DNA of 64,000 nt. Source: Ruficoccus amylovorans (lineage in GTDB: Bacteria > Verrucomicrobiota > Verrucomicrobiia > Opitutales > Cerasicoccaceae). The position numbers and the translations under genes were made by a program. The notes beneath the pieces are model-generated. The model worked only from the letters and a program-made list of their open reading frames with translations. It did not search any database and had not been told where the DNA came from. Shown one piece after another: positions 1-21,357 of this stretch (positions are counted from its first letter, which is position 1; every line of letters starts with the position of its first letter). The stretch covers positions 434,001 through 498,000 of the forward strand of contig NZ_JACHVB010000035.1 in NCBI RefSeq assembly GCF_014230085.1. The letters run 5' to 3'.

Positions 1-2622
1 TCCGGTGTTGGGCTCCAGCAGGACCTTGAACTCCGCGCCCGCGCCTTGGCCGCCGGGGCGAAGGTCGGTCAGGGTGGCGGTGGGCTCGTCGGTCACGCGG
101 GTGTAGCCGTCCACGTCCGAGAGGAGCACGACCTGGATGCCGGTCTGTTCGTAGTTTTCCTCCCACTTGGGCTCGGGCATGGCGGGGAGGAAATTCTGGA
201 ACAGGTACTCGGTGGTGAATGAGCCGGTGATGACGGACTTCAGGTTGCCGCGCGGGTGCCAGTAGTCCCACAGGGAGGGGGCGCCGGGTTCGCTCTTGTT
301 GGCGTTGGGCGGGCCGGCCACTGCCGGGAAGTCGATGCCGGTCGTTTTTAAGGGGTTCCAGACGACCTCCTCGTGGCTGGAACTGGTCAGGTCCGGCCCG
401 AGTGTGAAGGGCTGGTAATGGTGCGGGAAGAGCGCCATCACGCTCTTGGAGTCGTCCGCGACCATAGCGGAGGCGGAGGGGTCACCGGCGGCGACGAAGG
501 GGTTCTGGAAAGCGGCGTCGAAGTGTGTGGTGACCTTGTACATGTTGGTCACGGAGTAGCGCACATCAGTGTCGGTGAGGAAGTTGAAGGCGTACTTGCC
601 CATCTGGTCGGCCCAGTCGCGGGCGGCCTGGTCGAGCACGGCTTTGGCGTCTCGGGTAACGCCGGTGTGGTAGTAGCGCATGACGGGCACCTGGCCCACG
701 ACGAACCAGTTCTTGCCCGTGCCGTTAAAACCGTCTTCGGCGAACTTTAGGTAAAAGTACGGGTTGCCCTGGGCATCGGTGCCGGAGTTGGCGGCGGTGA
801 GCGGCTCGACCGTGTCCGTACGGTAGAAGACCGCGAAGTAGGTGTGGTTGTCCTGCGCACCGGGCGGATTGAAGCCGCCGGGGAGCTGGTCGTTCGGGTC
901 GGAGGTGGGGTCGGGCAGGTAGCTGAACTGCGGGCCGTTCTCCTGCGTCCACTGGTTCGGGTTGGTTTGGTCGCCGTAGAGCAGGACATAGCTGACGCCG
1001 GTCACGCCGGGGACTTCCCACGGTCCGCCTGCAACAGTCCCGGCGTTCGTGCCGGTGGTGTTGTTCATCGAGTCCTGAAGGTTTTGGCGGATGAGGTTGT
1101 AGAAAACCATATAACGGTCGGTGTCGGCGGGGGCGGTCTGGTTGGCGTTCAACTCGCACCAGACGAAGGGCGAACCCTGCGCGACGGTCATTTTCAGGTA
1201 GTTGCCCCGGCCCTGCTGGTTGAAGTCGCTGCGGCGGTAGCGGTAGTTGTCGTAGGCGGAAATACCGGGGTGCGAGCCTTCCCAGACCAGGTCGGCGTGC
1301 CAGTCGCCCATCTTGTCGGTGAGGATGGCAAAGGGCGTCTGCTGCTGAGGCTGGAGCCCGGAATTGAAGACCGGGTAGGGGAAGGGCTGGTAGCTGGGTT
1401 CAAGGGCCGTGCCGACGTTGTTCCAGGTCTCCTGGGTGAGTATGTCGGTGGGCGGGACGACGGAGGGCACCAGTACGAGTGTCTCCAGCGGGCGCACCTG
1501 CATACGCAGCCACGATTCGCGCCAGTAGTCCGGAAAAGTGTCCCCGCTGCCGTAGTCGATGCGGTCGCCGTACTGGTAGAAAAACGGGTAGTTGGGCGAG
1601 AGGTTGACCCCGCGCACGATCTGCTTGTCCTGCCAGAACTTCGTCTCGCCGGGGTAGGCTTTCATCGGCTTGGTCAGGTAGCCGAACTTGCCCGGAGCCC
1701 AATTGTAGTTCAGGCGCAGGGGCTGCATATAGAGCGGTTGCTGGTCGATGCGCACGGGCGTCCACGAGCCGTTGTCAATGCCCTGCTCGGGGACGTATTG
1801 CCAGACGTAGAAGTCCCACGGGGTCACGCTGTTGTCGCTCGGGTCCTTGTAGGGATAACCGGCGCTGTGGCCGGGCGGGGGCGTGCCGTTGCCCCACAGG
1901 AACCAGCCCATCCAGCTCCGGCGTCGGGGTTGGGCGCGCTGCGAGGTGTAATCGCTGAGCAGGTTCTGGGTAAAGGAAACCTGGTCCGCGCCGACGGCCT
2001 TCGGGTACTTGCTGTCCTGCGGGGTGTCGTCGGTGGCGCTGACGGGCGGGTTGATCTGGTAAATGTAGGCGTCGGTCAGCGCGGGGATGCCGTTCCAGGC
2101 GTCTCCGGCCTGCACGCCGACGAGTACCTTGGCCGCCAGTTCGGGGTTGAAGGGGACATCGAAATTGAGCCGGTAGAAGTACTGCTGGCCCGCCTCCAGC
2201 GGAGGTGAAACCGGCTGGCGGTAAATGAGCACTCCGGGGTTTTCCGGGTCGGGCTGGCCGGAGACGGTGATGGGCACATCCACCCACGAATCGCTGGCCA
2301 GTGTGCTCGAACGCTCAAGCTGGGTCTGGACCGAGCTGTCGAGGTCGGCGCGTTGGCGGAAAACCACCAACTGTGACGAGCCGCTTTTCTCCATCGCCGG
2401 GCCGACGGCGGCGGGCACATCGGCCACCAGCGGATCGGTGCCGAAGACGAACTCCAACGCGTTGATGTAGTGGTCCTGGTCCGGGTTCAGTAGAGGATAC
2501 TCCTGGCCGGTGGGGAAGGCGTAGCCGGCGGTCCACTCCTCGTAAGTGGTCGCCGAAGCGGATGTGCAAGTCAGAAGCGCGGCACCTGCCAGCGCCATTT
2601 TTAGTGGCGTCGTTTTATTCAT
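1..2622 (-). CDS. Secreted glycoside hydrolase family 81-like endo-beta-1,3-glucanase, C-terminus beyond window
   Basis: The reading frame is open from ATG at 2622 to the left edge (874 codons seen, no stop), so the gene is partial at its 3' end. Residues 1-23 form a signal peptide ending in SASA. The first part carries a short 'FGTDP' segment and a beta-rich module. Later parts match the GH81 beta-sandwich layout: 'NWFVVGQVPVM', a 'MGKYAFNFLTDTDV' stretch, the 'ALFPHHY' motif (GH81 enzymes have a similar FPHQ-type motif) and a 'HPRGNLKSV' segment. GH81 enzymes cleave laminarin-type beta-1,3-glucan, and their catalytic alpha/alpha barrel follows these motifs, so it should lie outside the window. 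The N-terminal extension before the GH81 part is long for the family. No Shine-Dalgarno is visible before the ATG. Family assignment is by motif memory and fairly secure; activity is inferred. Confidence 0.72.
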   Translation of the reverse strand, partial: MNKTTPLKMALAGAALLTCTSASATTYEEWTAGYAFPTGQEYPLLNPDQDHYINALEFVFGTDPLVADVPAAVGPAMEKSGSSQLVVFRQRADLDSSVQTQLERSSTLASDSWVDVPITVSGQPDPENPGVLIYRQPVSPPLEAGQQYFYRLNFDVPFNPELAAKVLVGVQAGDAWNGIPALTDAYIYQINPPVSATDDTPQDSKYPKAVGADQVSFTQNLLSDYTSQRAQPRRRSWMGWFLWGNGTPPPGHSAGYPYKDPSDNSVTPWDFYVWQYVPEQGIDNGSWTPVRIDQQPLYMQPLRLNYNWAPGKFGYLTKPMKAYPGETKFWQDKQIVRGVNLSPNYPFFYQYGDRIDYGSGDTFPDYWRESWLRMQVRPLETLVLVPSVVPPTDILTQETWNNVGTALEPSYQPFPYPVFNSGLQPQQQTPFAILTDKMGDWHADLVWEGSHPGISAYDNYRYRRSDFNQQGRGNYLKMTVAQGSPFVWCELNANQTAPADTDRYMVFYNLIRQNLQDSMNNTTGTNAGTVAGGPWEVPGVTGVSYVLLYGDQTNPNQWTQENGPQFSYLPDPTSDPNDQLPGGFNPPGAQDNHTYFAVFYRTDTVEPLTAANSGTDAQGNPYFYLKFAEDGFNGTGKNWFVVGQVPVMRYYHTGVTRDAKAVLDQAARDWADQMGKYAFNFLTDTDVRYSVTNMYKVTTHFDAAFQNPFVAAGDPSASAMVADDSKSVMALFPHHYQPFTLGPDLTSSSHEEVVWNPLKTTGIDFPAVAGPPNANKSEPGAPSLWDYWHPRGNLKSVITGSFTTEYLFQNFLPAMPEPKWEENYEQTGIQVVLLSDVDGYTRVTDEPTATLTDLRPGGQGAGAEFKVLLEPNTG

Positions 2623-16918: not shown

Positions 16919-16984
16919 GCGCGTACGGTCCTGTGCGTGTGCCTGCCGGAACGCCTGTTTTTATCGCTTCACTACTACTGATAG

Positions 16985-17016
16985 AAGGCCCGCCGTCGTT
17001 GGCGGGCTTTCTTTTT
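16985..17016 (+). terminator. Rho-independent terminator after chaN-like gene
   Basis: GCCCGCC and GGCGGGC form a seven-pair stem around a six-base loop, extended by A/T pairs and followed by TTTCTTTTT. Confidence 0.85.
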
Positions 17017-17094: not shown

Positions 17095-17122
17095 TTGCAT
17101 GCATTAAATTCGTTTGTATAAA
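17095..17122 (+). promoter_or_regulatory. Candidate sigma-70-type promoter of the PspA-flotillin operon
   Basis: TTGCAT at 17095-17100 and TATAAA at 17117-17122 are separated by 16 bp, in an A+T-rich stretch about 70 bp upstream of the first gene. I see no sigma-54-type TGGCAC/TTGCA pair, which differs from the enterobacterial psp operon. Confidence 0.45.
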
Positions 17123-17190
17123 TCTTATACAGAGCAAGCCTCCCGCCATCCAAACCCCTTGTTCTTACTCTCACCCCGATGTAAAAAGCC

Positions 17191-17706
17191 ATGAACGAAC
17201 CGGTCAAAACCGTGCCCATCAGTGGCCGTATCAGCCAGCAGGATTACGATTTCATGATGCAGCACTCCTTCGGTGGAAAAGTCACCGCGAGCGAAAAGCT
17301 GCGCCATGTCGCCTCCTTCTTTCGCCAGTATCACGAGCATTTCGGCAGCTACGCCGAGGGCATCGAGGAACTGAACCGCCTGTCCGAGCCCGCCCGCAAG
17401 AATATCAAGCACCTCGAATACGAGCAGGGCGTGCACTCCGAACTGGTCGATGCGGCGGCGAACCTTTTCCCGCTCGGGGTGGCCTACCTGGCCAGCCGCC
17501 AGCAACGCCCCGCGAAAAAGGACCAACTGCCCTACCTGTTGGAGACCGAGGAGCGCCTGCTCGCGCTGGTGCTGCGCCTGCTGGAGCAGGTACTTCGGTT
17601 GGGGCTGACCACGCAGGCGCCGGCTTATAACCCTCATCTGCTGGAGGATAAACTGGGCACGATCACCGAATTGGTTGGACTGCTTTCCAAACGCGACCAC
17701 AGTTAA
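17191..17706 (+). CDS. Unknown 171-aa protein, first gene of the PspA-flotillin operon
   Basis: 171 aa, soluble, no signal peptide or membrane segment. The N-terminus 'VPISGRISQQDYDFMMQ' followed by 'TASEKLRHVASFFRQYHEH' resembles a ribbon-helix-helix layout: a short strand, a helix, then 'xTxSEKLR' like the RHH second helix. The rest is helical with heptad-like Leu spacing. It lies 144 bp upstream of the PspA-like gene and in the same direction, downstream of a candidate promoter. It may be a regulator or adaptor for the stress operon. This is inference from position and a weak N-terminal pattern; I do not recognise the family. Confidence 0.7.
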   Translation: MNEPVKTVPISGRISQQDYDFMMQHSFGGKVTASEKLRHVASFFRQYHEHFGSYAEGIEELNRLSEPARKNIKHLEYEQGVHSELVDAAANLFPLGVAYLASRQQRPAKKDQLPYLLETEERLLALVLRLLEQVLRLGLTTQAPAYNPHLLEDKLGTITELVGLLSKRDHS

Positions 17707-17850
17707 TCTCACCCCCGGTTACCATGAGCTTGTTTTTCCGATTTTCTGGCCAGCGACATTCCAGTCGGACGGCCTGCGTATTCGGTAACTTTATTTCCTT
17801 TCCCGCGCGGCGGCTGCCGTGCCGACCTTAACCCCTAACGCCACACTGTC

Positions 17851-18534
17851 ATGAACGATAGCATCAGCAACCGTATCCGGCGCATCATCACCGGGACCGC
17901 CAGTTCCATTGTTTCCAAAATCGAGGGCCTCGCCCCGGAGGTCGTGCTTGAGCAGGCCATCGCCGAGGTGGACTCCGCACTCGACGAGGTCAAGGCCGAG
18001 CTGGGCCGCGTGACCGCGCAGAAGTACCACGTCACCAAGGCCATGACCAAACTCAACGAGGAGCACTCGACCATCGAGGACCAGACGCTCGAAGCCCATA
18101 AACAAGGACGCAAAGACTTGGTGGAGGCTGCGATTTCGCGCCAGCTCGACATTGAGGACCAGCTTCCGGCCCTGGAAAGTCAGCTCGGCGAACTGGGCCG
18201 TCAGGAAGAGGAGTTGAACAAAGCCATCGCCGGGCTCGTGGCCAAGCGCAACGAGATGGACGACGAACTTTTCGAGTTCAAGCAGGCGCAGAAGGAAGCC
18301 GCCACCACCGGAGGCGACTCCGGCACGGTTGCAGGGCAGCCTTCGGGCACTGGAGCCGCCGCCCGCGCCGACCGGGCCGAGCGCGCCTTTTCCCGCGTCC
18401 TTCAGGATGCCACCGGCGTGCGCCGGACGGCGATCAAAGCCGGGTCCGAAGAAAGCGCCAAACTGGTCGAGCTCGCCCACCTGAACAAGAAGGCCCGCAT
18501 CGAGGCACGGATGAAGGCCCTTTCCAACCAGTAA
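17851..18534 (+). CDS. PspA/IM30 family envelope-stress protein
   Basis: 227 aa. 'RIRRIITGTASSIVSKIEG' at the N-terminus gives the amphipathic membrane-binding helix of PspA/Vipp1 proteins. 'PEVVLEQAIAEVDSALDEVK' follows and a long coiled coil extends to about residue 150. A low-complexity linker of Gly, Ala and Thr separates this from a short C-terminal helix. The size and pattern fit the ESCRT-III-like PspA/YjfJ family, which coats and stabilises the inner membrane under stress. It is 23 bp upstream of the YqiJ-like gene, and a flotillin follows, a gene order known from psp-related operons outside enterobacteria. Confidence 0.88.
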   Translation: MNDSISNRIRRIITGTASSIVSKIEGLAPEVVLEQAIAEVDSALDEVKAELGRVTAQKYHVTKAMTKLNEEHSTIEDQTLEAHKQGRKDLVEAAISRQLDIEDQLPALESQLGELGRQEEELNKAIAGLVAKRNEMDDELFEFKQAQKEAATTGGDSGTVAGQPSGTGAAARADRAERAFSRVLQDATGVRRTAIKAGSEESAKLVELAHLNKKARIEARMKALSNQ

Positions 18535-18557
18535 CCGCACCCTGTTAGCCACCCCGC

Positions 18558-19304
18558 ATGTTCGCTCACTTCACCGCCCCGGAAAACCTTCCCTTCGCCG
18601 TTGCGCTCGGGCTGTTTTTCCTCATCGGCATTCTGCAGACAGTCAGCCTGCTGACAGGCATCAGCCTCTTTGGCTGGCTTGACAATCTGCTGCCGGACTT
18701 CGAGGCGGATCTGCCCGGTGATCTCGGGCTGGATGGTGTTGAGGGCGGACTCGACGGGGCATTGGAGGCGGATCTCGACACAGGAGCGGACGCGGACGTG
18801 GCGGACTCCCCGGGCGATGGCTCGTGGATCGCCGATGCCTTCGCCTGGATGAACTTCGGCAAGGTGCCCTTCATTATCAGCTTCCTGCTCTTCCTGTTTC
18901 TGTTCTCCTGCATCGGCTACAATGCCCAACTGCTGTTAACCGAGGCGGGCATTGGCCCGTGGCCTTCGCTGCTCATGGCTCCGCTGGCGCTGGTCGTGGC
19001 GGTCTTCCCGCTCAAGTGGGGGAACGCGCTGATGGGACGCGTGCTGCCGCGCGACGAGACCAATGCTGTATCCAAAAACAGCTACATCGGACGCGTTGCC
19101 ACCATCACCATCGGCGAGGCGACGCATGAGCGTACCGCTGAGGCCAAGCTCCGGGGGCCGCTCGGGCGCACGCACTACGTCATGGTGCGGGCCGACCGCG
19201 AGGGGGCGCGCTTCGGACAGGGCGAGCATGTGCTCCTCGTGGCCGAAGAGGAAGGGCATTTTACCTGCATCGCGGTCAACAATCCGAACCTTGACGATGA
19301 TTGA
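18558..19304 (+). CDS. YqiJ/NfeD-like membrane protein with OB-fold tail
   Basis: 248 aa. Hydrophobic segments at about residues 13-35, 100-122 and 132-152 flank a strongly acidic insert (residues 45-90, rich in Asp and Gly). The C-terminal part from 'NSYIGRVATITIGEATHERT' to 'GQGEHVLLVAEE' has the small beta-barrel pattern of NfeD/YqiJ OB domains. YqiJ-type proteins are encoded next to flotillins and are thought to help place them in membrane domains. The acidic insert is longer than I would expect. It lies between the PspA-like and flotillin genes, with short spacing. Confidence 0.8.
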   Translation: MFAHFTAPENLPFAVALGLFFLIGILQTVSLLTGISLFGWLDNLLPDFEADLPGDLGLDGVEGGLDGALEADLDTGADADVADSPGDGSWIADAFAWMNFGKVPFIISFLLFLFLFSCIGYNAQLLLTEAGIGPWPSLLMAPLALVVAVFPLKWGNALMGRVLPRDETNAVSKNSYIGRVATITIGEATHERTAEAKLRGPLGRTHYVMVRADREGARFGQGEHVLLVAEEEGHFTCIAVNNPNLDDD

Positions 19305-19411
19305 GACGCGCCACCTGGAACCGCGCCACCGCCATCACCTGGCCAGGGCAGGCGCCGTCCCTTTTTTTCGCTAACCAACCACAACAATATCCCGATTAAT
19401 CCATATTTGAT

Positions 19412-21115
19412 ATGAATATCTTGATCTGGGTCGGCATCGCCTTTGCCGCACTTGTCTTCTTCGGTGTCGCTATCACTCGGCTTTACAAGCGCTCCTCCAA
19501 GGAAATCGCCTTCGTGCGAACCGGCCTTGGCGGGGAGAAAGTCATCCTCGACGGCGGGGCGATCAAGCTCCCTGTCTTTCAGGAAATCGTCGCTGTCAAC
19601 ATGCGCACGCTCCGCCTCCAGGTGGACCGCAAAAACGAGGACGGCCTCATCACCGCGGACCGCATGCGTGTGGACGTGACGGCGGAGTTTTACGTTCGGG
19701 TGCGCCCGGAGAAGGAATCCATCGCCAAGGCCGCACAGACCCTTGGCGACCGCACGCTCCAGCCGGAGATGCTCAAGGAGCTGCTGCAAGGCAAGTTCGT
19801 CGATGCGCTCCGCGCCGTGGCCGCCGGGCTGAGCATGGAGCAGTTGCACGAGCAGCGGGCTGAGTTTGTCCAGTCCGTGCAGTCGTCCGTCAGCGAGGAC
19901 TTGCTCAAGAACGGTCTCGAACTCGAATCGGTCTCGCTGACCGCACTCGACCAGACCGGTCGCGCCTACTTTAAGGAGGACAACGCCTTTGACGCGCAGG
20001 GTCTGGCCAAGCTCACGCTCATCACCGAAGCCAAGCGCGAGGAGCGCAACCGCATCGAGCAGGACACCCGCGTGAAGATTGAGACGAAGAACCTCGAAGC
20101 GGCCCGGCAGAGCTTCCACATCAAGCGCGACGAGGAGATGGCCCGTCTCGACCAGGAGCGGGAGGTCGCCTTTGCCACGGCCTCGCAGGAGGCGCTTGTG
20201 GCCACGGAAAAGGCCACCCGCAAGCGCGAGGCCGAGGAGTCCCGCATCGTGCAGGAACAGAAGGAAAAAGAAGCCGCGATTACAGCCGATCAGGCGATTA
20301 AGGAGCGGGACATTCATGCCAAGCGTCAGGTCGAGGAGGCCGACATCGAGCGGCACCAGTCGGTTGAAATCAAAAAGCAGACCGCCGACATTGCCGTGGC
20401 CAAGAAGTCCGAAGAGCAGTCCGGTGCCGAGGCTGAGGCCGCGAAGGCCCGCGCCCTCATGGTCCGCGAAGAGGAAAACGTCGTCACCGTGCGCCAGACT
20501 TCCGTGGCCAACCGCGAAAAGGAAATCCAGTTGATCAAGGCCCGCGAAGCCGCCGAAAAGGACGCCATCGACGTGAAGGTCGCCGCCGAAGCCGAGAAGC
20601 AGGCCGCCCTCGACAAGGCCGAGGCCGCCGTGACCGAGGCCAAGGCGCAAGCCGAGCGTATCCGCATCGTGGCTGAGGCCGACCACAAGCGTCTGGAGGT
20701 CGAGGCTTACGGCGAGAAGGCGATCAACGAGGCCAAGAACCTGCTCAGCCAGGAGATCATCAGCTTCGAGATCCGCAAGATCCTCGCCCAGGTCGCGCCG
20801 CAGATCATCGAGGCCAGCGTCAAGCCGATGGAAAAGATCGACAGCATCAAGATCGTTTCCACCAACGGATTTCACATCCCCGGATCGAATGGCGGAGGAA
20901 ACGGTGGCACTGCCGACGGCTCGGGGTCGCTGGCCCCGGCCACGGGCGGGATGCCCAACCAGTTGATGGAATCGCTGCTGGCCTATCGGATGAACTCGCC
21001 CATCGTGGACAAGTTGCTGCATGAGCTGGGGATCGATCCTTCCCGTCCAGGTGGCCTGTCCAGCGACTTGGCCGATGCCCTTGACGGGGGACGGGAGAAG
21101 TCGAAAAAATCCTGA
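19412..21115 (+). CDS. Flotillin/YqiK family SPFH-domain protein
   Basis: 567 aa. An N-terminal membrane helix (residues 2-22) is followed by an SPFH/Band 7 domain (about 28-190; 'RTGLGGEKVILDGGAIKLPV', 'VDVTAEFYVRV'). Then comes a long charged coiled coil with many EA/KA repeats (about 200-430), and a flotillin-type C-terminal region with a Gly-rich linker ('GGGNGGTADG'). The protein matches YqiK/FloT-type flotillins in order and size. Flotillins organise membrane microdomains and affect fluidity. It is the last gene of the operon and ends before a strong terminator. Confidence 0.93.
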   Translation: MNILIWVGIAFAALVFFGVAITRLYKRSSKEIAFVRTGLGGEKVILDGGAIKLPVFQEIVAVNMRTLRLQVDRKNEDGLITADRMRVDVTAEFYVRVRPEKESIAKAAQTLGDRTLQPEMLKELLQGKFVDALRAVAAGLSMEQLHEQRAEFVQSVQSSVSEDLLKNGLELESVSLTALDQTGRAYFKEDNAFDAQGLAKLTLITEAKREERNRIEQDTRVKIETKNLEAARQSFHIKRDEEMARLDQEREVAFATASQEALVATEKATRKREAEESRIVQEQKEKEAAITADQAIKERDIHAKRQVEEADIERHQSVEIKKQTADIAVAKKSEEQSGAEAEAAKARALMVREEENVVTVRQTSVANREKEIQLIKAREAAEKDAIDVKVAAEAEKQAALDKAEAAVTEAKAQAERIRIVAEADHKRLEVEAYGEKAINEAKNLLSQEIISFEIRKILAQVAPQIIEASVKPMEKIDSIKIVSTNGFHIPGSNGGGNGGTADGSGSLAPATGGMPNQLMESLLAYRMNSPIVDKLLHELGIDPSRPGGLSSDLADALDGGREKSKKS

Positions 21116-21139: not shown

Positions 21140-21164
21140 ACGCCCCCCGTCAGGGGGCGTTTTT
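21140..21164 (+). terminator. Rho-independent terminator of the PspA-flotillin operon
   Basis: ACGCCCCC and GGGGGCGT form an eight-pair stem with a five-base loop, followed by a T-run. Confidence 0.9.
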
Positions 21165-21357
21165 CGCCTGCCACGTTGCAGATCGGAGGCGTGATTTTTA
21201 AAAGCCTCCTGCTGTATCCATTTTCGGATACGGGGGCTTATGCCTTTGATGTGGCACGCTTCGGCGTGCGTCGCGTTTTATTTTGCCGGTTGGTCATGTC
21301 ATAACGAGGGGACGATTATGCTTCCCGTCCGCGAAGTATTTGGTTAAAATACTCTAT

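Follow-up and report, generated by a model that had tools for sequence, protein, structure and literature searches.

A candidate ribbon-helix-helix autorepressor encoded by the first gene of a PspA-YqiJ-flotillin operon in Ruficoccus amylovorans

What does the first gene of a PspA-YqiJ-flotillin operon do when its product resembles no recognised family? The question is raised by four genes within a stretch of 64,000 nucleotides of the Ruficoccus amylovorans genome, referred to here as the window. An earlier note on this DNA had described four codirectional genes ending at one terminator, the last three belonging to known envelope-stress families and the first, here called the head gene, encoding a soluble protein of possible ribbon-helix-helix (RHH) type that might be a regulator or an adaptor. 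The genes and their boundaries are as follows.

16983-17012, + strand: intrinsic terminator of the upstream ChaN-like gene (13-bp stem and T tail), the upstream boundary of the operon
17191-17706, + strand: head gene (171 aa; RHH-like N-terminus at about residues 6-50, predicted four-helix C-terminal part at 54-170), the proposed autorepressor
17851-18534, + strand: PspA/IM30 family membrane-remodelling protein (227 aa; PspA_IM30, PF04012, 5.3e-13; solved relatives Vipp1 and PspA)
18558-19304, + strand: YqiJ-like membrane protein with an OB fold (248 aa; YqiJ_N, PF21001, 7e-21; YqiJ_OB, PF07290, 6e-19)
19412-21115, + strand: flotillin (567 aa; SPFH/Band 7 and Flot domains; Band_7, PF01145, 2e-18; Flot, PF15975, 9e-34; flotillin-2 SPFH structure 1win)
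21144-21166, + strand: intrinsic terminator of the operon, a G+C-rich hairpin (core 21144-21157) and a T run 3' of the flotillin gene

All four open reading frames lie on the plus strand between the two terminators, and the terminator scan reported no terminator-like site between the head gene and pspA. The arrangement first described thus stands, and the four genes can soundly be read as one operon. Pfam bears out the families of the last three products as well: PspA_IM30 scores 49.5 bits against a cut-off of 33.9, and YqiJ_N (75.1 bits), YqiJ_OB (68.3 bits), Band_7 (67.6 bits) and Flot (116.6 bits) are all above theirs; the flotillin gene product scores below the strict FloT equivalog cut-off. 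In agreement with the earlier note, a sigma-54 promoter pattern is absent, as the plus strand before the head gene has no such site with up to two mismatches and the window has none beyond chance. A second PspA-family gene is present in the same genome, unlinked to the operon (G000:C25:62874-63476; L024).

The earlier note had made the role of the first gene depend on its being conserved next to pspA, and this linkage is kept in relatives. A search of the order (273 genomes) gave strong matches to the head protein in 11 genomes and a fragment in a twelfth (G054). This count excludes weak matches (E about 1e-4) in G039 and G069 and an additional one of that kind in G054; no operon genes were found around the match in G039. 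An independent search of the order for PspA recovered a close orthologue (at least 62% identity) in exactly the same 12 genomes. The head gene and orthologous PspA co-occur in 12 of 12, the pair in G054 consisting of decayed fragments. Gene order in the examined loci is the head gene upstream, then pspA, yqiJ and the flotillin gene, with the head gene directly 5' of pspA or separated from it by one TerB-like gene. Since the genes that flank the operon in the window (ChaN-like, PEP-CTERM and downstream ones) did not turn up beside it in relatives, the four-gene block is the conserved unit. In G054 (L076 2840-6684) just fragments of the head, pspA and flotillin genes are found, the last of them kilobases off, which would be either a decaying operon or an assembly fault.

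The linkage extends beyond the order. In genus g309 (G693, G710), of the same class and another family, the same operon starts with the gene of a 28%-identical homologue, and a further homologue is present in G773. A search of 7.3 Gb starting from the g309 homologues reached the betaproteobacterium Vitreoscilla filiformis, on whose plasmid pVF1 a 'hypothetical protein' that is 26% identical to the G693 homologue (E 1e-10) heads a head-pspA-yqiJ-flotillin operon. This was the only one of the plasmids searched with a head relative, and the search made of viral contigs gave none. Separately, plasmid-borne PspA proteins of Rhizobium and Shinella (L079 4488-5645, L080 3895-5004), with YqiJ and flotillin genes following them, carry about 150 extra N-terminal residues that have no Pfam match. 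Their interpretation as head-PspA fusions was dropped, the extra part being devoid of the head motif; to the eye it has some likeness to the N-terminal region of IS605 OrfB-type proteins.

The region between the head gene and pspA holds one further feature.

17724-17850, + strand: remnant of a deleted TerB-like gene, with just the start ATGAGCTTGTTT and the 3' tail left in the window

In four relatives (L001, L002, L003 and L029) the space of about 450 nt between the head gene and pspA holds an intact ORF of 135 aa (L001 5038-5445), whose match to TerB is sub-threshold and mostly full-length (best 1.8e-4, weakest 0.03 in L029). L027 has a 53-codon TerB-like form, shortened in frame. Because relatives hold an intact TerB-like ORF at this place and the window keeps its start and tail, the 144-nt gap in the window (17707-17850) is read as a deletion scar, and the ancestral operon would also have held a TerB-like gene. 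The gap is only 3-22 nt in Vitreoscilla, g309 and G017.

Within the libraries searched, the first protein is rightly called unrecognised. The 171-aa protein matches no relevant family in Pfam, NCBIfam, PADLOC, PHROGs or PDB sequences, and weak PHROGs matches, to families without an assigned function, come from one divergent head member alone. The suggestion of an RHH protein fares less evenly. In an alignment of 14 head sequences, R13, G29, T32, S34, K36, L37, R38, S83, E120, E132, L135, R136 and T140 are invariant. Residues 6-50 fit the RHH pattern, with S-x-R in the strand, a short helix and G-x-x-T-x-S-x-K-L-R starting the second helix (helix B), a pattern that is invariant or near-invariant among the heads. 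Aligned with a CopG-type RHH profile built solely from proteins of the same group of bacteria, the head profile keeps the register of this pattern and reaches a score of 14.7, which none of 60 column-shuffled controls equalled (best 11.3), at an hhalign probability of just 6.8%. These results lend weak support to an RHH N-terminus. On the other side, there is no RHH family match in Pfam, NCBIfam, PHROGs or PDB sequences, and the predicted structure is unconvincing: two AlphaFold runs (pLDDT 57 and 62) were too poor for fold assignment. The low-confidence monomer (mean pLDDT 62) has two helices, 16-23 and 33-48, and then four more, and forms no N-terminal strand, and structure comparison of the model returned helical-bundle matches alone (Z at most 4.5).

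If the head protein is a DNA-binding regulator, its operator would be expected near its own promoter. Two putative elements precede the head gene.

17095-17122, + strand: putative sigma-70-type promoter (TTGCAT, 16 nt, TATAAA), with a constant spacing between TTG and palindrome across genera g1, g3, g4 and g25
17115-17131, no strand assigned: putative operator TGTATAAATCTTATACA (TGTATAA-N3-TTATACA), a perfect 7-bp inverted repeat with a 3-bp spacer, over the probable -10

The -35 TTGCAT matches the E. coli -35 poorly and was hence missed by the consensus scan. The palindrome was first sought near the head gene, and within single 130-bp regions an inverted repeat is not rare (3-82 of 200 shuffles for most sequences; some are below the arm threshold). 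As the repeat alone is not rare, the argument rests on three other properties. These are (i) conservation, as between-genus identity is 0.82 inside the palindrome against 0.34-0.45 in the flanks (alignment anchored on the site), and each of the 10 operon genomes searched has a match to TGTATAANTATTATACA, with up to two mismatches, 5' of its operon; (ii) genome-wide uniqueness, as the operon palindrome is the only site with up to two mismatches in the window genome (4.5 Mb); and (iii) symmetric change, as both arms are altered together in L027 (TGCATAA...TTATGCA). One arm overlaps the -10 and would be conserved for that other reason; the second arm is not so explained. A regulator other than the head protein could also bind the palindrome. 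Other operon genomes mostly hold a few further matches at most, with more in G017 and G027, and among 12 genomes that lack the operon or have a divergent head a single one has one weak match.

Where the strand of the head is ISGRI the palindrome is kept; searches of G029 (VAGRI) and of G693, G710 and G773 (MSVRL) did not recover it. This is as would be expected if the strand reads the palindrome, in a correlation over few lineages. The G029 and g309 genomes have inverted repeats of their own before the head gene. In 3 of 3 g309 genomes (L073, L074, L089) this repeat is TTTTCATTCGCAATGAAAA, with 8-bp arms. It precedes the head gene by about 13-35 bp and, though its sequence differs from that of the palindrome, is a candidate operator in that genus.

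In G006 the site and promoter are found 503 bp further upstream, directly before an added small-protein gene. This gene (L029 5507-5893), between the operator/promoter and the head gene, encodes a 128-aa protein with a signal-peptide-like start, and L003 has a protein resembling it at the C-terminus, whose end lies immediately 5' of the operator. G027 has an exact palindrome (L096 1501-1517) 60 bp before the gene of a 259-aa TerB-domain protein (661-1440, minus strand; PF05099, 9.6e-12). That gene is a possible second target of the palindrome; the operon of G027 itself is without TerB, and the -35-like TTGCA at the L096 site points the opposite way.

We propose that the PspA-YqiJ-flotillin membrane-stress operon is controlled by its own first gene, an RHH-type autorepressor, and regard this as probable. 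The head protein, acting as an RHH-type dimer, would bind TGTATAA-N3-TTATACA through its N-terminal strand (KTVPISGRIS) and two helices. On the palindrome it would cover the -10 of the only recognisable promoter and so repress the whole operon, the head gene included. The helical C-terminal part would serve as the sensor, contacting PspA or a PspA/flotillin assembly. PspA would then be the signal: membrane damage would redirect it to the membrane, the contact with the head protein would change and the repressor would be released. This step draws on analogy with PspF-PspA and BacA. Between the two roles that the earlier note had offered, regulator and adaptor, the gene content, the linkage, the RHH-like N-terminus and the palindrome over the probable -10 favour the regulator, with a putative RHH fold and presumed DNA binding.

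PspA-YqiJ-flotillin operons have already been described, with a CesT/Tir-like protein as their usual head (Ravi et al. 2024, PMC11237479), and the same work noted RHH factors as the last gene of another type of PspA operon. Like the block in the window, the CesT/Tir operons bring together PspA, a YqiJ/YuaF-type protein and flotillin, with the gene of a small soluble protein adjoining pspA; the window's block differs in having neither an AAA+ ATPase nor a phospholipase D gene, and in its head, which is predicted to be all-helical with an RHH-like N-terminus. The bac operon of P. aeruginosa also starts with a small protein followed by PspA (BacB), and without BacA (DUF2170) the remaining Bac proteins rise 6- to 13.5-fold (PMC10948618). 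BacA has a CesT-like alpha/beta fold and its operon a proposed sigma-54 promoter, whereas the window has a sigma-70-like promoter under the palindrome.

The head protein could be a soluble adaptor or chaperone of PspA that takes the place of the CesT/Tir-like BacA/YjfI, the palindrome being read by another regulator. The position of the CesT/Tir-like gene before pspA in the related operons (PMC11237479) speaks for this, as does BacA, which has such a fold and whose loss nevertheless raises the proteins of its operon (PMC10948618), and the predicted helical C-terminal part makes up most of the head protein. We nonetheless judge it unlikely. The low-confidence AlphaFold model is all-helical, unlike the alpha/beta fold of BacA and other CesT/Tir-like proteins, and neither the head protein nor any of 13 homologues matches PF09938 (DUF2170/YjfI/BacA, CesT/Tir-like) in Pfam. 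The N-terminus has a conserved RHH-like pattern, and the restriction of the site to this operon within the window genome favours a dedicated regulator. A head protein with a double role, repressing the DNA and also forming a lasting stoichiometric complex with PspA, so that each titrates the other, would suit the strict co-occurrence with orthologous PspA and the large helical part predicted for the head, and seems to us quite improbable. Hardly credible is that the conserved DNA is a promoter element alone, such as the -10 of a particular sigma factor, with an incidental palindromic look: TATAA(A/C) does follow the conserved TTG by 16 nt, but the second arm TTATACA is also conserved, the arms of L027 changed together, and a sigma element would be expected at many promoters rather than at the single site of the window genome.

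The proposed autorepressor can be set beside better known regulators. RHH autorepressors of the CopG/MetJ/Arc type have a short strand and two N-terminal helices and act on a palindromic site over the promoter. The head of the window resembles them in its RHH-like N-terminus, the palindrome over its promoter and a probable autoregulation. It differs in having no significant profile membership and a large helical C-terminal part, and in not being a toxin-antitoxin or plasmid copy-control gene. With the enterobacterial psp operon (pspF-pspABCDE) the block shares PspA and the logic of membrane stress; it differs in having no sigma-54-like site before the operon and no pspB, pspC or pspF.

A head gene of another fold before pspA (CesT/Tir-like; BacA/YjfI, DUF2170) is thus already described, whereas a search of the literature, limited in extent, turned up no conserved operator together with a head that is RHH-like and predicted to be all-helical. 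Proteins that currently carry the label 'hypothetical' thereby gain a family of their own, and a TerB-like protein is connected with a PspA/flotillin operon. We suggest, tentatively, that the head proteins of Verrucomicrobiota and of one betaproteobacterium or more may constitute a new family of membrane-stress regulators, in which an RHH domain fused to a helical sensor would read the status of PspA or flotillin directly, as a one-component counterpart of PspF-PspA control. A small family with its own candidate operator, encoded next to pspA, makes the control of PspA systems without PspF and sigma-54 testable.
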